Shown: positions 4,520 through 56,753 of the stretch, one piece after another | Numbering within the stretch: position 1 is the stretch's first letter | Layout: each line of letters starts with the position of its first letter | DNA from: Actinosynnema sp. ALI-1.44 | GTDB lineage: Bacteria > Actinomycetota > Actinomycetes > Mycobacteriales > Pseudonocardiaceae | NCBI RefSeq assembly: GCF_001984155.1 | Contig: NZ_MTQO01000035.1 | Span: 1 to 64,000, forward strand | Length of the DNA: 64,000 nucleotides | Direction: 5' to 3' | Made by a program: the position numbers and the translations under genes | Notes under the pieces: model-generated | The model's database searches: none | Told to the model about the DNA's origin: nothing | The model's input: only the letters and a program-made list of their open reading frames with translations

Positions 4520-5560
4520 ATGCGGGTGATGGTGATCGGCGCGGGACTCGGCGGGTTGACGCTGGCCCACGGGTTGCGCCAGGCGGGGGTCGACGTCGTG
4601 GTGTACGAGCGCGACCAGGCGGAAGGGCGGCCGCAGGGCGTCAGCCTGCACTTCGACGACCGGGCGGTGACGGCGCTGCGGGCGTGTCTGCCGCCTGGCC
4701 ACGCGGCGATGGTCGAGGCCACCGCCGGTGGACAGCGGGAGCACACGATGTGCCTGTCCGAAGTGGATGGTGAGCTGGTTGTGGAGGCCCAGCCGGAGAG
4801 CCGGGCGAGGAAGGGCAGACAGGTCCACCGGCCGTTGTTGCGAGCGGTGCTGCTGACCGGCCTGACCGACCGGGTCCGGTTCGGCACCGGATTCACCCGG
4901 TTCGAGCAACGCGGCGACGGCACAGTCCGGGCCTGGTTCGCCGACGGCAGCACGGACACCGCGGACGTCCTGGTCGGCGCCGACGGGATCGGGTCGGCGG
5001 TGCGGAGCCAGTACCTGCCGCACGTCCAGGTGGTCGACACCGGCAAACGCATGCTCATGGGCGCGACCGCCCTGCATGCCGTGGCCGACACTGGCCTGCC
5101 GGGGCTGATCGGCCACAACGCCACCAGCGTGAACGTGCGTGGCACGACCATGGCGTTGGGCGTGCTGCGCTTCAGCCAACATCCCACCGCCGCGCGGGAT
5201 CAGTGGCTGCCTGCGCTGCGCTCCCCCGTTGTCGACAACGCCGAGGACTACGTCATGTGGGCGCTGCCCGGTGCCGAACCCACGCACCCCGTTCTGCGGC
5301 GGGTGGTCGAGAAGGCGTGGCCGGATGCCACGGCCCAGCTGCGGATCGGGCTGATCCCGCCGATGCCACCGTGGCCTCCCGGCCCGGTCACGCTGATCGG
5401 CGACGCGATCCACCTGGCACCGGGGTTCGGCGGCAACCTGGCGATGCAGGACGCACACCGCCTGTGCGACGCGTTGGTGCACGGCGGTCCCGGGGCCATC
5501 GGCGTGTACGAGAAAGCGATGCGCCAGGACAACTTCCTGCACTCCGTCGGTGCCGTATGA
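4520..5560 (+). CDS. FAD-dependent monooxygenase (PHBH/TetX-like)
   Basis: This 346-residue flavoprotein belongs to the class A aromatic-hydroxylase fold that also contains TetX and rifampicin monooxygenases. It would use NAD(P)H and O2 to hydroxylate a small aromatic or antibiotic-like substrate in the cytoplasm. It has the Rossmann FAD motif GAGLGG at residues 7-12, and the second FAD motif LIGDAIHLAPGFGGNLAMQD near residue 293, slightly divergent from the usual GDAAHPMPP form. The ATG at 4520 follows an AAAAGAGGGGG ribosome-binding stretch. It is divergent from a TetR gene with a double operator, and its stop overlaps the start of the next gene (ATGA), so the two are translationally coupled. 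The substrate cannot be read from sequence; detoxification is a reasonable guess given the TetR partner. Confidence 0.85.
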   Translation: MRVMVIGAGLGGLTLAHGLRQAGVDVVVYERDQAEGRPQGVSLHFDDRAVTALRACLPPGHAAMVEATAGGQREHTMCLSEVDGELVVEAQPESRARKGRQVHRPLLRAVLLTGLTDRVRFGTGFTRFEQRGDGTVRAWFADGSTDTADVLVGADGIGSAVRSQYLPHVQVVDTGKRMLMGATALHAVADTGLPGLIGHNATSVNVRGTTMALGVLRFSQHPTAARDQWLPALRSPVVDNAEDYVMWALPGAEPTHPVLRRVVEKAWPDATAQLRIGLIPPMPPWPPGPVTLIGDAIHLAPGFGGNLAMQDAHRLCDALVHGGPGAIGVYEKAMRQDNFLHSVGAV

Positions 5561-47494: not shown

Positions 47495-47563
47495 CCAACG
47501 GCAACGGCAGGTCGCTTGCGCACGTTCAGGGTCACCGCCCCGGCTGTCATGCGATCATGAAGA

Positions 47564-48163
47564 ATGCCCGTCCTCTTCACGGCGGTCCTGGCCGCAGGCA
47601 CGCTGAACGCGTTGCGCCAACCGGTGCTGGCGATCGACGACCGCTTCACCCTGCGGCCGTGGCGGGCGCAGGACGCACCCGTCGTACGGGAGGCGTTCGA
47701 CTGCCCGCGGATCCAGCGCTGGCATCCCCGCCGGATGGACTCCGACGAGGAGGCCGGGGAGTGGATTTCCCGGTGGGACCGGGAATGGCGGGACGAAACC
47801 GGGACGAGCTGGGCGATCGCCGACAACGACCGGGCCGTCGGGCAGATCGGTCTGCGGGACGTCAGCCTGGTGTCGGCCGTGGCGGAGCTGTCCTACTGGG
47901 TGCTGCCTGAGGCGCGCGGAGCCGGGTTGGCCGCCCGTGCCGTGCGGCCGATGACGAGGTGGTGCTTCGACACCGTCGGTTTTCACCGGTTGTTCTTGAA
48001 GCACTCGACCGAGAACATGGCTTCGTGCCGCGTCGCGACCACCGCCGGGTACGTGCCCGAAGGCACGTTGCGCGCCGCGATGCTGCACACGGACGGCCTG
48101 CATGACGCGCATGTGCACTCCAGGCTGCGCACCGACGAAGGGAACGACGATGGGTCTGCTTGA
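47564..48163 (+). CDS. GNAT-family N-acetyltransferase (RimJ-like)
   Basis: This 199-residue protein has the RimJ/RimL-type GNAT pattern: FTLRPWRAQDAPVVREAFDC, WAIADNDRAVGQIGLRDVSL, AELSYWVLPEARGAGLAARA (acetyl-CoA binding loop R-G-A-G-L-A), VGFHRLFLKHSTENMASCRV. The first ~25 residues are an N-terminal addition of unclear value. First gene of a coupled operon: its last 14 bases overlap the cyclase gene. Confidence 0.8.
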   Translation: MPVLFTAVLAAGTLNALRQPVLAIDDRFTLRPWRAQDAPVVREAFDCPRIQRWHPRRMDSDEEAGEWISRWDREWRDETGTSWAIADNDRAVGQIGLRDVSLVSAVAELSYWVLPEARGAGLAARAVRPMTRWCFDTVGFHRLFLKHSTENMASCRVATTAGYVPEGTLRAAMLHTDGLHDAHVHSRLRTDEGNDDGSA

Positions 48164-48911
48164 CCAGCTACGCGCCGCGATCACGACCGGTGGCATCGAG
48201 ATCATCGACCTCACCGCCCCGCTGACCTCCGGCACGCCCATCCTCCAGCTGCCCGAACCGTTCTCGAACACGATCCCGTTCCGGCTGGAGGAGATCAGCC
48301 GGTACGACGACCGGGGGCCCGCCTGGTACTGGAACAACATCCACACCGGCGAGCACACCGGCACCCACCTGGACGTGCCCGTGCACTGGGTGTCGGGCAA
48401 GGACGGCCATGACGTGTCCCAGGTTCCGCTGAGGACACTCGTCGCTCCCGCCGCGGTGATCGACGTGTCGGCGCGGGTCGCGGGCGATCCCGACTTCCTG
48501 CTCCAGATCGACGACGTCAGGAGCTGGGAGGCCGAGCACGGACAGCTCCCCGACGGCGGCTGGCTGCTCGTGCGCACCGGGTGGTCGGTACGCTCCGACG
48601 ACGCGGCGAGCTTCCTCAACGAGTCGCACAGCCCCGGTATGTCCGCCGAGTGCGCGCGGTGGCTCGCGGAGGAAACCGTCCTGACGGGCGTCGGCGTCGA
48701 GACGGTCGGCACCGATGCCGGGGCGGCGCACGGCTTCGATCCGCCCTTCCCTTGTCACAACTACATGCTCGGCGCGGGCAAGCACGGGTTGACGCAGTTG
48801 CGCAACCTGGAGGCGCTGCCGCCGGTCGGGACGGTCCTGGTGGTGTCGCCGTTGCCGATCGTCGGCGGTTCGGGCAGCCCGGCCCGGGTCCTCGCGCTGG
48901 TGGAGCGGTGA
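48150..48911 (+). CDS. Cyclase-family metallohydrolase (kynurenine formamidase type)
   Basis: This 253-residue protein has the cyclase-family signature HTGTHLDVPVH (H-x-G-T-H-x-D-x-P-x-H, residues 69-79), and later GVGVETVGTDAGAAH and FPCHNYMLG. The family comprises bacterial kynurenine formamidases and related manganese/zinc hydrolases. The ATG at 48150 lies within the preceding GNAT gene. The stop overlaps the GTG of the ThDP enzyme gene (GTGA). Substrate open. Confidence 0.85.
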   Translation: MGLLDQLRAAITTGGIEIIDLTAPLTSGTPILQLPEPFSNTIPFRLEEISRYDDRGPAWYWNNIHTGEHTGTHLDVPVHWVSGKDGHDVSQVPLRTLVAPAAVIDVSARVAGDPDFLLQIDDVRSWEAEHGQLPDGGWLLVRTGWSVRSDDAASFLNESHSPGMSAECARWLAEETVLTGVGVETVGTDAGAAHGFDPPFPCHNYMLGAGKHGLTQLRNLEALPPVGTVLVVSPLPIVGGSGSPARVLALVER

Positions 48912-50503
48912 AGGTCTTCGAGGCCGTCGGCCGGACCCTGGCCGAACTCGGTGTGGCGCAGGCGTTCGGAGTCATCGGCAGTGGCAACTTCACGGTGACG
49001 AACGCGTTGCGGGCGTACGGGGTGCCGTTCGTCGCGACCCGGCACGAAGCGGGCGCGGCGACCATGGCGGACGCGTACGGCAGGATGAGCGGCCGGGTCG
49101 CGCTGGTGTCCGTGCACCAGGGCTGCGGTCTGACGAACGCGCTGACCGGGATCGCCGAAGCCGCCAAGAGCCGCACGCCGATGATCGTGCTCACCGCGGA
49201 CACGCCGGGCTCGGCGGTGCTGGCCAACTTCCGGATCGACCAGGACGCGGCCGTCACCGCGCTCGGCGCGACCCCGGAACGCGTGCACAGCGCCGAAACG
49301 GCCGTCGCCGACACCGTCAGGGCGTACCGGACCGCAGTGCACGAGCGCCGGACTGTCGTGCTCAACCTGCCGTTGGACGTCCAGAACCTCGAAGCCGCGC
49401 AGACCCCGGTCCCCGCCGTCCGGCCACCGCTGCCGGTGCGGCCGAACCACGAGTCGGCCGAGTCGCTCGCCGCCATGATCGACCAGGCGGCCCGGCCGGT
49501 CTTCATCGCCGGACGGGGTGCCCGCGGTGCCGCGCCGCGGATCCGGGAGCTGGCCGCGCGGACAGGCGCGCTGCTGGCCACGACGGCGGTGGCCAACGGC
49601 CTGTTCCACGACGATCCGTGGGCGTTGGGAATCTCCGGCGGGTTCGCCTCTCCCCTGGCCGTCGACCTCATCGCGGACGCGGACCTCGTGGTGGGCTGGG
49701 GTTGCGCGTTCACCAAGTGGACGACCCAACGCGGCAAGCTGCTCACCGGCAAGGTCGCCCACGTCGACATCGGCGGCACGCCACACCAGCCCGTCGACCT
49801 GTCCGTGCACGGCGACGCGGGTCAGACGGCAGCGGACGTCACCGCACTGGTCACCAAACGCGAGGGCTACCGGACGCCAGCTGTCGATGCCAGGATCGCC
49901 GCCGGTCCGGGCTGGCCGACGCCCGACCTGTCCACCGACGAGCACATCGACCCCCGGGAGCTGACCACCCGGCTGGACGCCCTGCTGCCGCGTGACCGGG
50001 TCGTGGCGGTGGACTCCGGCAACTTCATGGGCTACCCCAGCGGGTACCTGTCCGTGCCGGACGAGTTCGGGTTCTGCTTCACCCAGGCGTTCCAGTCCAT
50101 CGGGCTCGGACTGTTCACCGCGATCGGCGCCGCACTGGCCCAACCGGGCAGGCTACCAGTCGCGGCGGTCGGCGACGGTGGCTTCATGATGGGCATCGCC
50201 GACCTGGAAACGGCTGTCCGGCTACGGCTGCCGCTGGTGGTCGTCGTCTACAACGACAGCGCGTACGGCGCCGAGATCCACCACTTCGGGCCGGACGCCG
50301 ATCTGTCCACTGTGACCTTCCCCGACCCCGGAATCGCCCGGATCGCGACGGGTTTCGGCTGCTCGGCGGTGACCGTGCGGACCGGCGAGGACCTCGACGG
50401 TGTCGCGGACTGGCTGGCCGGGCCGAGAGACCGGCCGCTGGTGGTCGACGCGCGGATCGCGTCGGACGGCGGATCCTGGTGGCTGGCCGAGGCCTTCGGC
50501 TGA
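48908..50503 (+). CDS. Thiamine-diphosphate-dependent enzyme (ALS/decarboxylase type)
   Basis: This 531-residue enzyme has the three-domain ThDP fold of acetolactate synthase and benzoylformate decarboxylase. It has the catalytic Glu in TRHEAGAATMADAYGRMSGR (near residue 40), the middle domain (ARPVFIAGRGARGAAPRI), and the ThDP/metal motif GDGGFMMGIADLE...NDS (G-D-G-x(~27)-N). It probably decarboxylates or ligates 2-oxo acids. GTG start at 48908 overlaps the cyclase stop, so the two enzymes are made together. The cyclase plus ThDP enzyme pair suggests a catabolic route for an N-formyl or lactone-type substrate (inference). Confidence 0.87.
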   Translation: MKVFEAVGRTLAELGVAQAFGVIGSGNFTVTNALRAYGVPFVATRHEAGAATMADAYGRMSGRVALVSVHQGCGLTNALTGIAEAAKSRTPMIVLTADTPGSAVLANFRIDQDAAVTALGATPERVHSAETAVADTVRAYRTAVHERRTVVLNLPLDVQNLEAAQTPVPAVRPPLPVRPNHESAESLAAMIDQAARPVFIAGRGARGAAPRIRELAARTGALLATTAVANGLFHDDPWALGISGGFASPLAVDLIADADLVVGWGCAFTKWTTQRGKLLTGKVAHVDIGGTPHQPVDLSVHGDAGQTAADVTALVTKREGYRTPAVDARIAAGPGWPTPDLSTDEHIDPRELTTRLDALLPRDRVVAVDSGNFMGYPSGYLSVPDEFGFCFTQAFQSIGLGLFTAIGAALAQPGRLPVAAVGDGGFMMGIADLETAVRLRLPLVVVVYNDSAYGAEIHHFGPDADLSTVTFPDPGIARIATGFGCSAVTVRTGEDLDGVADWLAGPRDRPLVVDARIASDGGSWWLAEAFG

Positions 50504-50511
50504 ATGGCAGA

Positions 50512-50549
50512 AAGTTGACGCATCAACGGCAAGTTGACGTCACTAAAAT
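50512..50549 (+). promoter_or_regulatory. Repeat operator and leaderless-type promoter of the SDR gene
   Basis: AAGTTGACG occurs twice (50512-50520, 50531-50539), 19 bases apart. The first copy is part of the palindrome GTTGA-CGCA-TCAAC (50514-50527). A TAAAAT -10-like box (50544-50549) ends 7 bases before the ATG at 50557, so transcription may start at or very near the start codon. Confidence 0.5.
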
Positions 50550-50556
50550 CACCCTC

Positions 50557-51351
50557 ATGGAGTTCGGCGGCAGACATGTCCTGATCACCGGTGCCGCCAG
50601 CGGGATCGGCGCCGCGCTGGCGGAGCGGTTCGCCAAGGAGGGCCCCCGCGGCATCACCGTCGCGGACAGGGACCTCGACGGCGCGCGGGCGACGGCGTCG
50701 CGAGTGGACGGTCTGGCGGTGCACGCCGACGTGAGCAGCGAGCCCGCGATCCACCGGCTCATCGCCGAGGCGGAGCGCGAGTTCGGACCGGTCGACGTGT
50801 ACTTCTCCAACGCGGGGATCCCGCTGCCCACAGGCGGTGTCGAAGTCGCCGACGACGGCTGGCAGCAGCAGTGGCACGTGCACGTGATGTCCCACGTCTG
50901 GGCGATGCGCGCACTGCTGCCAGCCATGATCGACCGCGGCGAGGGGTACCTGGTCAACACCGCGTCCGCGTCCGGGCTGATCATGACGCCGGGCGCGGTG
51001 CCGTACACCGTGACCACACACGCCGCCTTGGCGCTCGCGGAGTCGTATGCAGTGATGTACAGCCACACCGGGGTGCGTTTCTCGTGCCTGTGCCCAGGCC
51101 TGGTCGAGACGCCGCTGATGGGGCAGGTGGACGACGGTCCCGTCGGCCGCGCGGTCCGCATCGGCCTGGCCGATCACGCGCTCGACCCGAGCGAGGTCGC
51201 GGACATCGCGCTCCTCGGGATGGCCGAGGAGCGGTTCCTGATCCACACCCATCCGGTGGAGATCACCATGGCCGCCCGGCTGCGTGCCCTCGATCCCGAG
51301 GTCTACCTGGAGACGATGCAGGAACTCTGGATCGCGGCCAAGCACTGTTGA
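50557..51351 (+). CDS. Short-chain dehydrogenase/reductase lacking the catalytic lysine
   Basis: This 264-residue protein is an SDR by fold: NAD(P) motif TGAASGIG (residues 11-18), NAG (85-87), catalytic-Ser region VNTASASG and Tyr150. The usual Y-x-x-x-K is here YTVTT: Thr154 (ACA) stands where the catalytic Lys should be, in a family context (PYTVTTHAALALAESYAV) that normally reads P-Y-x-V-T-K-H. Either a point mutation has crippled the enzyme or it uses a different mechanism. ATG at 50557, probably leaderless, with tandem AAGTTGACG repeats upstream. Confidence 0.85.
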   Translation: MEFGGRHVLITGAASGIGAALAERFAKEGPRGITVADRDLDGARATASRVDGLAVHADVSSEPAIHRLIAEAEREFGPVDVYFSNAGIPLPTGGVEVADDGWQQQWHVHVMSHVWAMRALLPAMIDRGEGYLVNTASASGLIMTPGAVPYTVTTHAALALAESYAVMYSHTGVRFSCLCPGLVETPLMGQVDDGPVGRAVRIGLADHALDPSEVADIALLGMAEERFLIHTHPVEITMAARLRALDPEVYLETMQELWIAAKHC

Positions 51352-51366
51352 CACGACCGGCACAGT

Positions 51367-51561
51367 TCACCAGGAAAGTATGACCCGGCTGCGGAAGCGC
51401 TCGTAGGCCTGGTCCGCGGTCAACGGTGACTTGGTACCCAGCCGCCAGCCCACCACCGAGGCCACCTCGCGGAACACGAACGCGGCGACCAGGTCGACGT
51501 CCTCGGGCGACAAGTGCGGCCGGAGGTGCTCGGCGAGGTCGTTCGTCAGGGTGCGACGCAC
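51367..51561 (-). pseudogene. C-terminal remnant, probably of a TetR-type regulator
   Basis: The minus-strand frame 51561-51367 has genome-like codon use and reads LTNDLAEHLRPHLSPEDVDL, VAAFVFREVASVVGWRLGTK, SPLTADQAYERFRSRVILSW and stop. It resembles the last helices of a TetR-family ligand domain, but the N-terminal DNA-binding half is missing. Its 5' side joins directly to the 3' piece of a P450 gene on the other strand. Family assignment is tentative. Confidence 0.4.
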
Positions 51562-51563
51562 CG

Positions 51564-51953
51564 CGAAAGGCGGTCGAGGAGTTGCTCAGGCACGACGGCC
51601 CGCTGCAGGTCTCGTTGCCCCGGATCACCGTGGCGGACGTGGAGGTGGCGAACACCACCATTCCCGCCGGGAGCATGGTGCACGTTGTCGTCGCGGCGGC
51701 CAACCGTGACGCGTCGAGGTTCGTGGACCCGGAGCGGCTGGGCATCACACGCACCGACAACCAGCACTTGGGTTTCGGGCACGGCGTGCACTTCTGCGTC
51801 GGCGCGGCGCTGGCCCGGATGGAAACGCGGGTCGCGATCGGCAGCCTGGTGACGTGGTTCGCCGGCCTGCGCCTGGCCGTGCCGGTCGAGGAGTTGCAGT
51901 GGGAGGTGAACCCGATTCTGCGGTCCCTGGTGTCGCTACCCGTGCTAACTTAG
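51564..51953 (+). pseudogene. Cytochrome P450 3' remnant
   Basis: The plus-strand frame from about 51564 reads AVEELLRHDGPLQ (K-helix E-x-x-R), then VANTTIPAGSMVHVVVAAAN, DPERLGITR, and the heme motif FGHGVHFCVGAALARMETR with the axial Cys, to a stop at 51953. The N-terminal two-thirds of a P450 are absent. The break is abrupt at about 51560, where the sequence changes to the antisense of the 51367-51561 remnant, so a deletion removed everything between them. Confidence 0.85.
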
Positions 51954-51974
51954 GAATCGCCGTGGTTGCACGGC

Positions 51975-52014
51975 CCGGACGAGCGCGTCGTACCCGGTTA
52001 CGCGAAGACGGCGC
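51975..52014 (+). ncRNA. Guanidine-III riboswitch (mini-ykkC-III class)
   Basis: The segment carries the conserved blocks of the guanidine-III class in order: CCGGACGAG (51975-51983), GTACCCGGT (51990-51998) and AAGACGGCGC (52005-52014). The pairing scheme of the class is kept: GCGTCGT with ACGGCGC (seven pairs, one G-U), and CCGG with CCGG for the pseudoknot. Loop bases ACGA and AAGACG that line the ligand pocket are unchanged. It lies 35 bases upstream of a guanidinium exporter of the Gdx/SugE type, the classical target. A 9-pair hairpin (52013-52039) abuts the GGAGG at 52040-52044, suggesting translational control. Confidence 0.88.
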
Positions 52015-52039
52015 AGTGATGGAGACGTTGCATTACTGC
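52013..52039 (+). promoter_or_regulatory. Expression-platform hairpin next to the gdx ribosome-binding site
   Basis: GCAGTGATG (52013-52021) and CATTACTGC (52031-52039) can form nine pairs with one G-U. The stem shares bases 52013-52014 with the 3' strand of the riboswitch helix, and is immediately followed by GGAGG. Competition between the two helices could gate access to the ribosome-binding site. Mechanism inferred. Confidence 0.5.
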
Positions 52040-52049
52040 GGAGGTAGTC

Positions 52050-52364
52050 ATGGCGTGGTTGGCGCTTGTCATATCAGGACTGTTCGAGACAGTGTGGGCC
52101 GCGGCGCTGAGCGCGTCGCGCGGACTGTCGAAACCCTTGCCCAGCATCGTGTTCGTGATCGCGCTCGTGGTCAGCATGGCCGGTCTGGGCTACGCGTTGC
52201 GGACCGTGCCAGTTGGTACGGGCTATGCCGTGTGGGTCGGTATCGGCGCCACCGGCACGGCCGTGTACGGCATGCTCGCGATGGGCGATCCCGTGTCGGT
52301 GAGCCGAATCACGTGTCTCGTGCTGATCGTGGCCGGAGTCGCGGGCCTCAAGTTCCTCCACTGA
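52050..52364 (+). CDS. gdx: Guanidinium exporter of the SMR family
   Basis: This 104-residue protein has four transmembrane helices and the Gdx (SugE) variant of the small multidrug resistance family: Glu13 in ISGLFETVWAAAL, and YALRTVPVGTGYAVWVGIGA and TAVYGMLAMGDPVSVSRITC. Gdx proteins export guanidinium in exchange for protons. The guanidine-III riboswitch in its leader and the family signature agree. The GGAGG at 52040 is 5 bases from the ATG. Confidence 0.92.
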   Translation: MAWLALVISGLFETVWAAALSASRGLSKPLPSIVFVIALVVSMAGLGYALRTVPVGTGYAVWVGIGATGTAVYGMLAMGDPVSVSRITCLVLIVAGVAGLKFLH

Positions 52365-52787: not shown

Positions 52788-53363
52788 GACGGAGTTGAAT
52801 CTGCGGCCCCGCTCCTGCGCCGCGGTGGTGTGCACGGCCGCAGCCTGGCAAGTCCAGATGTCGGGAAAGCGACGGTGGATCAACGTGTCGCGGAACTCGG
52901 CGGGATCGACGCCGCCTGCGTGGGGGTAGCCTCCGGGCCCCGATGCCCAGCCTGGCGGGGGTCGCCGACAGAACAGCGGTGCGAAGTTCAGGAACGCTCA
53001 GTTGCCCACAGAAGCTCTGCCAGGTCGTGCCGGGGGAGGTAAGCATGCCTGATGCCGGATTCTTGGAGTCACGGACCGCGAATCCGGTTCCTGATGGGCC
53101 ACTTCAACCCAGTTGTCGTTGTTCTCGCCACCGCTGAAGCTGCATGTCTTTCACGTCGTAGGTCCGGTACCACGGCTTCTTGGCCGCCGCCTCTCCCAAG
53201 GTCAGCCCCGATCCTTCGCGCATCCGTCGTGGTTTGGCGCCGAGTCTCCCGACGCAGGAACGGCAGGCGTGTCGATACCGTCACAGCGCGTCACAATCGC
53301 AGGTCGCGGTCCCGAAACCAGGAATCCCGGCACACCCGTGAACAATGGTGTACAGTTCTGAAC
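52788..53363. other. Gap with short unexplained reading frames
   Basis: No recognisable gene lies here. On the minus strand a 39-codon frame (about 53218 to 53099) reads MREGSGLTLGEAAAKKPWYR and ends with the charged tail QRWREQRQLG and stop; it may be a remnant. On the plus strand a 30-codon frame opens at an ATG at 53045 behind GGGGGAGG (MPDAGFLESRTANPVPDGPL). Neither is supported beyond this. The right edge carries the TetR operator. Confidence 0.35.
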
Positions 53364-53375
53364 ATGAGTGTTCAG
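53339..53375. promoter_or_regulatory. Double TetR operator over the start codon
   Basis: TGAACA-ATGG-TGTACA (53339-53354, one mismatch) and the perfect CTGAACA-TGAG-TGTTCAG (53358-53375) are two sites with centres 20 bases apart, two helical turns. The second includes the ATG (53364) of the TetR gene itself. Autorepression at the start codon is expected. Confidence 0.75.
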
Positions 53376-53903
53376 TCGATCTTGGATGTCGCGACCGAGG
53401 TGCTCCTGGCCAAGCCGAGCGCCTCGCTGGGGGACGTGGCCAAGGCCGCCGGGGTCAGCCGCACTACCCTGCACAAACGGTACGCCACGCGGCACGACCT
53501 GCTCGTCGCTCTCTCGCATGACGCGTACGACCGCGTCGAGAAGGCGATGACCGACGCGCAGCTCGATGTTCCCGGCTCGGAGGTCGAGGCCGCCCTGGAA
53601 CGGGCCATCGCCGGGCTCATCCCGATCGGGCCGCGGATCGAGTTCATGTACCGGCAGATCGGGCTGGACGACGTGCCCGACCTCGTCGCCCGCTACGAGC
53701 AGACCGGCGAGCCGCTGCTGCGGCTCGTCCGCCGGGGCCAGGAGGCCGGGATCATCCGGTCGGACATGCCGGACTGGTGGATCGTGTCCACCTTGGACGC
53801 TTCCTTCTACTCCGCGTGGGAGGCCATCTCCGTCGGCCGACTCGCCCCGCTCGACGCGCCCGCGCTCGTCATGAAGACCGTGATGCGAGGCATCGGGACA
53901 TGA
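53364..53903 (+). CDS. TetR-family regulator of the following MFS gene
   Basis: This 179-residue regulator has a TetR helix-turn-helix (SILDVATEVLLAKPSASLGD, VAKAAGVSRTTLHKRYATRH). The ATG at 53364 lies inside a perfect operator palindrome. Its stop overlaps the MFS start (ATGA), so regulator and transporter are co-transcribed and coupled. Longer in-frame extensions upstream have no family character. Confidence 0.9.
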   Translation: MSVQSILDVATEVLLAKPSASLGDVAKAAGVSRTTLHKRYATRHDLLVALSHDAYDRVEKAMTDAQLDVPGSEVEAALERAIAGLIPIGPRIEFMYRQIGLDDVPDLVARYEQTGEPLLRLVRRGQEAGIIRSDMPDWWIVSTLDASFYSAWEAISVGRLAPLDAPALVMKTVMRGIGT

Positions 53904-55141
53904 TCGCCGTCATCGGGTTGCTCGGGGCGACCGGACTGTCCGTCGCGGGCAACGCCATCACGGGTATCGCCGTCCCGTGGCTGGTGCTCGAACGCACCGG
54001 CAGCCCCGGTCTCGCCGGGTTGATGGCCGCCGCGGCGCTCGGCCCGCTCGCACTGTCCACTTTGTTCGGTGGTGCGCTGATCGACCGGTGGGGCCGCCGC
54101 AGGCTCAGCATCATCGCCGACATCCTCAGCGCGCTCGCCGTCGCCGCGCTGCCGGTTCTGGACAGCACACTCGGGCTCAACACGGCGCTGATCGCCGTCC
54201 TGGTGGCCTTGGGGGCGTTGTTCGACGGGCCCGGCATGGCCGCCCGCGAGGCCCTGCGGCCCGACGTGGCACAGCACGCGAAGGTGCCGCTGGAACGGGT
54301 GAACGCCTGGGGTGAGGCGTTGGAAGGGCTCGGCAACCTCGTCGCGCCGGGTCTGGCGGCGTTGCTCATCGCCACCACGGGCGCAACGAACACGCTGTGG
54401 GTCACCGTCGGCATGTTCTTCGGCGCCGTAGTGCTGACCTGGGTGACGATCCCACGTGACGTGCGCCGTACCGCAGCCCCGGACCACTACCTCCGATCCG
54501 TGGCCGAGGGTTTGACCTACGTCTGGCGCCAGCCGATGCTGCGTGGCGCCGGACTGACCGCGATGCTGCTCGTCCTGTTCGTCGCACCGATCACCATCGT
54601 GCTCACCGCGCAGGCGCAGAGCATCGGCAACCCCGGGCTGCTCGGCCTGGTCATGTCCGCGTTCGCGATCGGCGGCATCGTCGGGGCGATCGTGTACGGC
54701 GCCGTCGCACAGAAGCTGCGTCGCAGGCCGGTCCTGGTGTGGGGCCTGGTGATCACCGGTGTCGGGATCATGCTGTTCCCGTCCGGGATCCCCATGGCCG
54801 TGCTCGCGGGCCTCGTCGGTGTGGCCGCCGCGCCCATCAACCCGATCACGGCCGTCCTCATCCAGGAACGCACGCCGGAACGCCTGCGTGGCAGGGTGAT
54901 CGGCAGCGTCTCGTCGCTCGCCCTCGTCGCGGGTCCGATCGGCGTCGCGGTGGTCGGTGCCCTGCTCGAGAGCAGCAGCGCCGGGCTGGTGCTGGTGATC
55001 ATGGGCGGCGGATGTCTGCTGGCCGCGCTCTACGCGTTCGGCGCGCTGCGCGACATCGAGCCGCGCACCGGCCTGCCCGGCAACGAGTCCAACACCAGTG
55101 CCGAGTCGCGTACCACGAAGGAGCCGTTAACCAACAAGTGA
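53900..55141 (+). CDS. MFS transporter (12 helices)
   Basis: This 413-residue major facilitator protein has twelve helices and typical motifs (GGALIDRWGRRRLSIIADIL is motif A; LGALFDGPGMAAREALRPDV; INPITAVLIQERTPERLRGR). It belongs to the group of putative drug or macrolide exporters (MefA-like). Coupled to a TetR regulator by an ATGA overlap. Its last 112 bases overlap the 3' end of the convergent amidohydrolase gene. Confidence 0.88.
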   Translation: MIAVIGLLGATGLSVAGNAITGIAVPWLVLERTGSPGLAGLMAAAALGPLALSTLFGGALIDRWGRRRLSIIADILSALAVAALPVLDSTLGLNTALIAVLVALGALFDGPGMAAREALRPDVAQHAKVPLERVNAWGEALEGLGNLVAPGLAALLIATTGATNTLWVTVGMFFGAVVLTWVTIPRDVRRTAAPDHYLRSVAEGLTYVWRQPMLRGAGLTAMLLVLFVAPITIVLTAQAQSIGNPGLLGLVMSAFAIGGIVGAIVYGAVAQKLRRRPVLVWGLVITGVGIMLFPSGIPMAVLAGLVGVAAAPINPITAVLIQERTPERLRGRVIGSVSSLALVAGPIGVAVVGALLESSSAGLVLVIMGGGCLLAALYAFGALRDIEPRTGLPGNESNTSAESRTTKEPLTNK

Positions 55142-56526
55142 ACCACACCGATCGACGGCCGGACACCGTCCACATAGGTGGCCTGGTCGGTGATCCGGTT
55201 CGGGTCGAACACGAGCACGTCCGCGTCGCCGCCCGCCTTCAGCCGTCCCTTGCGGCACATGGCGGGCGCCGCGTCCTCCAGGATCCGCGCGGGGATCAAG
55301 GAACAACGAGCGATGACCTCGGGCAACGTCTGTACACCGCGCTCACGCCACAACGTCCGCAGAGACCTGGCGTACGTCCCGGCGCTGCGTGGATGTGTGA
55401 GAGTCCCAGGCGGCAACGGCCAGGTCATCGGGGGCGGCGGCGGACCCGGCCAGGTCATCGGCATCGCGTCGCTGGCGATCGCCCCACCGGGGTACAGCAG
55501 CGCACGGTCGAGGTGCTTGCGGTCGGCAGGATCGGTCTCGTCGAGGAAGTGCACGATCACCAACGCGCCCGGGTCCGATGCCCGCAACTCCAGCAGGCGT
55601 TGCTCGTCCTTGACCCGTTCACCGGTCGCCACGACCACGATGTCACTCGGCTTGAGGTCGGCCAGCTTCAACGCCTCCGGGGCGAGGAAGGCCGCACCGA
55701 TCGCGGTGGACGCGGCGCCGTAGGGGTACGCCTCGACCGACACCGGCGAGCCCTCGGCGATCGCCTTGTCCAGCAGGGCCCGCACGGTGTCGATCCGCCG
55801 CGCCGACGTGCTGTTGACGTGGCAGTAGTGCATGTGCGCGCCGGTCTGCCCGGCCGCGCGGATGATCTCCTTGGCGCCGTCGACCGGCACGTTCGGGTTG
55901 GCGTCGATCAACGCCCGCGCGTGGGTGTACGTGGGGACGCCCGCCTGTGCCGCGAGCCCGGCGATCAGCGTGAACTCGTCCGGGTCGACCAGCGGCGCGT
56001 ACCCGACCAGGATCCCGATCCCCAGGGCGCCGTCGGCCAGGTCCTGGTAGAGCCGCTGGTAGATCCGCGCCCGCTGGGCCTTGGACGCGGGCGCCTGCCA
56101 CCCGGGGTTGCCGAGGTTGCGCAGGATCGCGTGCACGGACGGATCCGGTTTCACGCCGATCAGCTCGATCATCCTGGCCAGCGCCCAGGATGTGGCGTAG
56201 CCGTAGTTCAACGGCCTGCCTTCGGACGCCGCGTAGGCGTACGCGGCGGCGACCGTCGTCGTACCCGCTTCGAGTTCCAACGCCGTAGTCACGCCGTCCA
56301 ACGCCTGCAGCCGTTGCTCGGGAATCGCCTGGCCGTGGCTGTGCAGGTCGATGAAACCGGGACACACCACCAGACCTGACACGTCGATGCGTCTCGCCGC
56401 ACGCAACGGCACCGTGGACACCGCGACGACCCGGTCACCGGTGATGCCGACATCGGCGATCTGGTCGAATCCGCTTTCCGGGTCGATCACCCGGCCGCCA
56501 TGCAGAACAGTCTCGATCAATGCCAC
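55030..56526 (-). CDS. D-aminoacylase / N-acyl-D-amino-acid deacylase type amidohydrolase
   Basis: This 498-residue amidohydrolase has the first metal motif VVCPGFIDLHSHGQ (His62-x-His64), further metal ligands in VPTYTHARA and HMHYCHVNS, IVHFLDETD and the late acid IASDAMPM. The N-terminal beta domain shows HGGRVIDPESGFDQIADVGI, as in N-acyl-D-amino-acid deacylases and related enzymes. I chose the GTG at 56526, followed by ALIETVLHGG; an in-frame GTG at 56553 is less likely. Convergent 112-base overlap with the MFS gene is unusually long for convergent genes but both reading frames are well conserved. Confidence 0.85.
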   Translation of the reverse strand: MALIETVLHGGRVIDPESGFDQIADVGITGDRVVAVSTVPLRAARRIDVSGLVVCPGFIDLHSHGQAIPEQRLQALDGVTTALELEAGTTTVAAAYAYAASEGRPLNYGYATSWALARMIELIGVKPDPSVHAILRNLGNPGWQAPASKAQRARIYQRLYQDLADGALGIGILVGYAPLVDPDEFTLIAGLAAQAGVPTYTHARALIDANPNVPVDGAKEIIRAAGQTGAHMHYCHVNSTSARRIDTVRALLDKAIAEGSPVSVEAYPYGAASTAIGAAFLAPEALKLADLKPSDIVVVATGERVKDEQRLLELRASDPGALVIVHFLDETDPADRKHLDRALLYPGGAIASDAMPMTWPGPPPPPMTWPLPPGTLTHPRSAGTYARSLRTLWRERGVQTLPEVIARCSLIPARILEDAAPAMCRKGRLKAGGDADVLVFDPNRITDQATYVDGVRPSIGVVHLLVNGSFVVRDSALVLDSLPGRPVRGSMSRSAPNA

Positions 56527-56753
56527 ACAGCCATCATGGCCGATCCTGACCACCGCCGCCGATGCCTTGCCCGGATGGCCTACCAGGTCGGCCCTTTGGG
56601 TACGCCTACCGACGTTGGCACCAGCGTCACGGCCGATGGTGCTCCACCGGTCGTGCAGTCCTTCTGGGCTTTGGGCGCGTGCGTCCAGCGGGAAGCTGGT
56701 CCGTCGAGAACCCCGATGAACCTTCCAAGACGCCAGCAGTCGCAGTCCCGCAG

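Follow-up and report, generated by a model that had tools for sequence, protein, structure and literature searches.

In the crystal structure of the guanidine-III riboswitch from Thermobifida fusca, the ligand contacts are C6, G7, and G17 (PMC5696562). Activation of the downstream gene through a freed ribosome-binding site has been proposed in general terms for this class (PMC5696562; PMC12186494), and the available sections of the former paper describe the functional mechanism as less well established and competing structures near the ribosome-binding site as probable. The window analyzed here is a 64,000-nucleotide stretch from Actinosynnema sp. ALI-1.44 (contig NZ_MTQO01000035.1, positions 1 to 64,000, forward strand), in which an initial annotation had placed a guanidine-III riboswitch in front of a small multidrug resistance (SMR) exporter gene, gdx. 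Judged by the available sections of PMC5696562, the window shares with the T. fusca riboswitch the full model, the pseudoknot pairings, the putative contact bases, and a nearby downstream ribosome-binding site, and no difference was found in the aptamer part. The competing downstream structure is drawn here by comparison, whereas the same text only proposes that such structures exist. The features of the locus are listed in Table 1.

Table 1 Features of the guanidine-III/gdx locus and its 5' surroundings, in window coordinates.
Feature	Position	Strand	Basis or remark
TetR-like C-terminal remnant	51367..51561	-	75.9% identity over 58 aa to L119 11545-11718, inside a 190-aa ORF
Cytochrome P450 C-terminal remnant	51564..51953	+	PF00067, 1e-16; matches the C-terminal end of L119 ORF 9983-11260 (425 aa), 86.7% identical over 128 aa
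-10-like box TAACTT in GTGCTAACTT	51946..51951	+	Candidate riboswitch-gdx promoter; overlaps the P450 remnant stop codon (51951-51953)
Guanidine-III aptamer	51954..52017	+	cmscan, RF01763 full model
5' hairpin of the Rfam model, GCCGTG/CACGGC	51959..51974	+	cmscan alignment, sequence
P1 5' strand CCGG, partner 51994-51997	51975..51978	+	Paired in 44/44 leaders
Putative ligand-contact C and G (C6 and G7 equivalents)	51980..51981	+	Inferred from T. fusca mapping; G17 equivalent at 51990
P2 5' strand GCGTCGT	51985..51991	+	Partner 52008-52014 in 44/44 leaders
Shared strand GACGGCGC: P2 3' strand and start of the competing platform stem	52007..52014	+	Pairing counts, folds
Platform hairpin, arms 52012-52021 and 52031-52040	52012..52040	+	Fold; pairing and covariation in 44 leaders
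Shine-Dalgarno GGAGG	52040..52044	+	Hairpin closed by its first G; remaining four bases in the internal loop separating the two platform-stem segments
GTC directly 5' of the start codon, predicted partner of GAC 52007-52009	52047..52049	+	Leader counts
gdx, SMR-family exporter, 104 aa	52050..52364	+	PF00893, 6wk5_B, key residues

Aptamer and exporter gene

The covariance-model search that the initial annotation had named as its check clearly confirmed the riboswitch class. The guanidine-III family (RF01763) matched over its full model (positions 1-67 of 67) with 52.6 bits (E 4.8e-8) against a gathering cut-off of 36 bits, and it was the sole Rfam match above cut-off anywhere in the window. The annotation had begun the element at 51975; because the match covers 51954-52017, the start was moved 21 bases upstream, taking in a 5' hairpin. 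The three conserved blocks were found in the order described, CCGGACGAG at 51975-51983, GTACCCGGT at 51990-51998, and AAGACGGCGC at 52005-52014.

The class-specific pairings, said to be kept with a compensating G-U pair, are indeed kept, with U-G at 51988/52011. In an alignment of 44 related leaders (A1), all 11 pseudoknot pairs of P1 and P2 (helix names following Huang et al.) were standard in every leader, that of the window included, and most of them hardly vary. P1, which joins CCGG to CCGG, showed no variation, and in P2 (GCGTCGT with ACGGCGC), four of the seven pairs were invariant, two had changed on one side, and one on both sides. Positions 51980, 51981, and 51990, the likely equivalents of C6, G7, and G17 in the T. 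fusca structure, were invariant over the 44 leaders.

The protein encoded by gdx matched the Small multidrug resistance family (PF00893) with 72.8 bits (cut-off 23.7). Its best solved relatives were 6wk5 chain B (E 3.5e-24) and 8vxu (E 1.3e-23), whose chains are very similar, and the other six of the eight PDB matches were EmrE-type, with E values of 7.5e-5 or weaker. We take 6wk5 and 8vxu to be Gdx-Clo; the search itself labels both as SMR family only. Compared with these two chains, the window protein has S for K after the AAL stretch and GDP for KEP late in the chain. All five Gdx-subtype residues are present (E13, W16, S42, Y59, and W62), so that family, length, and key residues are common to the window protein and to Gdx-Clo and other Gdx-subtype SMR proteins as presented in the available part of PMC7695847; there, position 16 of the Qac subtype is G or A instead of W. 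Among the 109 relatives parsed, S42 was found in all and Y59 and W62 in 108, and the counts for E13 and W16 are uninformative because the parser required both. The SugE equivalog model NF008512 was still the best NCBIfam match, with a score of 105.9 bits, below its cut-off of 126. Family and key residues thus bear out the earlier description of a Gdx-type exporter with Glu13, and guanidinium transport is predicted for it.

Two more SMR genes are located elsewhere in the genome, neither of them at a guanidine-III match; one retains E13 and W16 and has A42 and F62, and the other is Qac-like by eye. The same genome also has a gene that matches urea carboxylase over its full length (TIGR02712, 1769 bits, C27:9018-12554), and enzymes annotated as urea carboxylase can favour guanidine as substrate, according to the part of PMC12186494 available.

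A search of the 11.7-Mb genome returned one further RF01763 match (L002, C38:193485-193549), with 37.1 bits against the cut-off of 36. It was rejected as a second riboswitch and attributed to chance: it sits on the opposite strand within an open frame at least 1,021 codons long, which by eye resembles a polyketide synthase gene, and it is likely a false positive in GC-rich DNA. Because this low-scoring antisense hit is the only other one in the genome, the window match stands beyond chance. No guanidine-I match was found in the same genome at E 0.001. RF01763 matched in one of 14 control genomes, in 192 of 390 family genomes at E 0.001 (186 above cut-off), and in 4 of 8 genomes of the same genus, its own counted. 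The motif CCGGACGA occurs within 300 bases upstream of 75 of 80 related genes, these being the best 80 of at least 368 confirmed relatives. One family member (L171; genome G375, contig C61) carries a variant core, GCGGACGAG with GTACCCGC, in which the ends of P1 look by eye to be changed on both sides, a change that would preserve P1 pairing.

Expression platform in the window and in related leaders

We consider it probable that this guanidine-III riboswitch is a translational ON switch that acts by strand exchange on a Gdx-type guanidinium exporter gene; within this model we infer ligand binding, the ON direction, control at the level of translation, and the promoter. In the absence of ligand, GACGGCGC followed by AGTGATG would pair downstream with CATTACTGCG and with the GTC before the start codon, leaving most of GGAGG in a small loop flanked by a stem on either side. 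Guanidine, a toxic compound, would hold the GACGGCGC strand in pseudoknot P2, and the base of the downstream hairpin would open and leave the Shine-Dalgarno sequence free.

In the window, the hairpin and P2 both use 52012-52014, and the hairpin ends on the first G of GGAGG, as the initial annotation had noted in describing a hairpin that shares riboswitch-helix bases and adjoins this motif. Its predicted fold was moderately better than that of shuffled sequences (z -2.03, 7 of 200 shuffles as good), as was that of the whole leader (z -1.92, 6 of 200). Fold energy alone was rejected as evidence for the window, given that equally stable folds were obtained for 41 of 157 unrelated ribosome-binding regions; conservation of the hairpin is the stronger evidence.

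The inner hairpin of the window platform is complete. The outer stem is broken by A52046 opposite G52010 and is therefore reduced to the three GAC/GTC pairs, which makes it weaker than in close relatives. In the predicted free state, four of the five Shine-Dalgarno bases were looped out rather than paired (P(unpaired) of at least 0.94). When the aptamer strand was held, P(unpaired) rose from 0.05 to 0.89 at G52040 and fell from 0.94 to 0.09 at G52044, so that the computed net gain in accessibility is small, in an energy model whose scope excludes pseudoknots. Given the weak outer stem, the looped Shine-Dalgarno sequence, and the small change in accessibility, strand exchange has better support in the group of relatives than it has as a strong feature of this copy.

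Leaders were parsed from 109 of 114 related loci (L081, L085, L087, L111, and L117 were missed) by demanding an E..W motif near the N-terminus of the encoded protein, and 93 of them were distinct. By length and motif, these were divided into 44 hairpin, 33 compact, 11 Micromonospora-type, and 5 other leaders. Only the 44 hairpin leaders entered the covariation count, and since the motif that defines them spans the foot of the 3' arm, pairs at the hairpin foot are conserved partly by choice. In alignment A1, the ends of five of the 44 rows (L052, L054, L059, L065, and L098) were set at base 5006 of their loci; the other leader counts and the GACG fold test used script-picked starts. A second alignment (A2, 28 compact leaders) was left out of the counts because its columns after the aptamer were out of register.

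Both alternative pairings are conserved over the one shared strand, and the downstream one covaries. Across the 44 hairpin leaders, platform pairs were kept in 85.8% of cells, compared with 25-49% when the strands were slid against each other, and covariation was 0.248 against 0.142 in shuffles, none of 500 reaching the observed value, and against 0.079 or less in slid alignments. Cells changed on both sides numbered 45, against 21.8 in shuffles that do not preserve relatedness among the leaders. Counted by pair, two-sided changes did not exceed the control in these leaders (6 pairs against 4.8 in shuffles, 75 of 500; sliding by -3 likewise gave 6). Of the 45 two-sided changes, 43 fall in columns 44-48 (paired with 77-81), above the hairpin foot, and the same columns hold 51 unpaired cells. 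For the hairpin base alone, 96.4% of cells were paired, with a covariation of 0.276 against 0.149 shuffled.

A test less dependent on the choice of motif asked whether the predicted fold joins at least three bases of the aptamer's GACG to the 10 bases preceding the start codon. A later set consisted of 40 regions taken from the family RF01763 match list, spread over genera and chosen before the downstream sequence was known; 39 gave a leader (the exception being L171 with its variant core), and 8 of these repeated leaders of the first set, leaving 31 new ones, a sample that is neither random nor phylogenetically independent. The pairing was predicted for 36 of 44 hairpin leaders, for 21 of 33 compact ones, and for 19 of the 31 later ones; Micromonospora-type (2 of 11) and other leaders (1 of 5) seldom showed it. 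With the ribosome-binding regions of other genes grafted on (157 distinct regions served as background for folds), the corresponding values were 0.061 for hairpin, 0.100 for compact, 0.089 for later, 0.098 for Micromonospora-type, and 0.070 for other leaders; the grafts keep the first four bases of each leader's own downstream part.

GTC stands directly before the start codon in 58 of the 93 leaders (32/44 hairpin, 21/33 compact, 2/11 Micromonospora-type, and 3/5 other). The hairpin and compact leaders together account for 53 of 77, compared with 14 of 31 later leaders and 9 of 207 background sites. As the GAC of the aptamer is nearly invariant, this conservation represents complementarity, not covariation. 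A swap test gave median percentiles of 0.12 (hairpin), 0.18 (compact), 0.86 (Micromonospora-type), and 0.76 (other), and it is weak because the 5' arms hardly vary. Five leaders, three of them from the same genus (L003, L004, and L005, with L042 and L066), are predicted to fold into a single long stem bearing a four-base bulge, and they carry GTCGTC or GTTGTC at or immediately before the start codon.

Two mutually exclusive conserved partners for one strand, the second of them next to the ribosome-binding site, are seen in the hairpin-type and compact leaders, more weakly in the window, and not in most Micromonospora-type leaders. Six leaders from Micromonospora and one other member of the Micromonosporaceae (L045, L078, L088, L090, L105, and L110) contain CTCGTCC, and L112 has CTCGTCCG. 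CTCGTCC is complementary to the aptamer 5' block GGACGAG; at least seven such complementary bases were found in 6 of the 11 Micromonospora-type leaders, against 3.3% of mononucleotide shuffles in a comparison that ignores kinship. This is possibly a second, different expression platform. With somewhat less assurance than for the switch itself, we favour the generalization that in many actinobacteria GACGRCGC, the P2 strand, would swap to a split second copy of its aptamer partner (CTGCG, followed by the Shine-Dalgarno sequence and then by CGTC ahead of the start codon), and that Micromonospora-type leaders would use CTCGTCC against GGACGAG. An explicit competing pairing was not found in the accessible portions of the guanidine-III literature, and it may already be in print.

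Alternative mechanisms and the neighbouring rearrangement

The main action of the riboswitch could instead be on mRNA stability, a ligand-bound pseudoknot near the 5' end stopping RNase E scanning, with the hairpin secondary or passive. Such a mechanism has been reported for guanidine-III (Richards and Belasco 2021, as cited in the available text of the review PMC12186494), and the candidate promoter at TAACTT would place the 5' end near the first hairpin of the aptamer. Among the 93 distinct leaders, 66 of 82 TANNNT boxes within 75 bases before CCGGACGA fall 26-38 bases upstream of it, in a count made without a shuffled control; a consensus sigma-70 scan identified no promoter at the TAACTT box. 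A stability mechanism does not account for the covariation between the ribosome-binding region and the shared strand, or for the GTC that precedes the start codon in so many leaders. We therefore regard it as unlikely to be the main action, although the two mechanisms are compatible with each other.

Regulation of transcription, by a terminator or Rho, is the mode of action of guanidine-I and guanidine-IV riboswitches (available sections of PMC12186494). For the translational switch favoured here and against a transcriptional one, just 32 bases separate the aptamer match from the gdx start codon, the Shine-Dalgarno sequence lies within the platform, and no terminator-like site was found in 51850-52100 by a scan that excludes Rho; we consider a transcriptional switch very improbable.

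The initial annotation had also placed the unit right behind a recombination scar, and this scar is real. Compared with a genome of the same genus (G005, locus L119), the segment 51387-52908 is inverted relative to its flanks, which are themselves collinear at 88% (47535-51353 and 53186-56570), and 1,176 bases (L119 10369-11544) are missing from the window, a stretch that in L119 encodes the N-terminal portions of a P450 and a TetR-like protein whose genes lie head to head; with two genomes compared, either orientation may be the older. The corresponding C-terminal remnants remain in the window. The TetR-like remnant gave no family match, and the longer L119 frame was assigned as TetR-like by eye. 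The RF01763 match starts immediately after the stop codon of the P450 remnant. Aptamer and gdx are intact and present in both genomes, and the scar is without visible bearing on the switch. Further downstream, a TetR-like regulator followed by an MFS transporter (53361-55141) is collinear in G005; the transporter is closest to Tap, at 228.2 bits, below the cut-off of 625.

That the aptamer is a post-rearrangement relic without switching, with gdx expressed constitutively, is scarcely credible. In its favour, the breakpoint lies about 390 bases 5' of the aptamer and the outer-stem mismatch is missing from the same-genus leader L004, but the aptamer blocks, P1, P2, and the putative contact bases are intact, the inner hairpin is complete, and the promoter-like box is untouched by the breakpoint.

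Significance

The anatomy of the complete, compact guanidine sensing and export unit that had been proposed is complete in the window. The outer stem of its platform is weakened, a qualification that the proposal did not carry, and guanidine binding and export are predicted from sequence. To judge from the available portions of the papers, the riboswitch class, the ligand pocket, the gene partner, and the freeing of the ribosome-binding site are already in print, and the system in the window is a known kind of guanidine sensor-exporter pair, mostly ordinary. The useful addition is comparative, in that a covarying platform names the strands that would swap and opens the switch to a direct test with paired mutations. 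If the generalization to other actinobacteria is true, guanidine-III riboswitches would combine a single, nearly invariant aptamer with two or more platforms of separate evolutionary origin.
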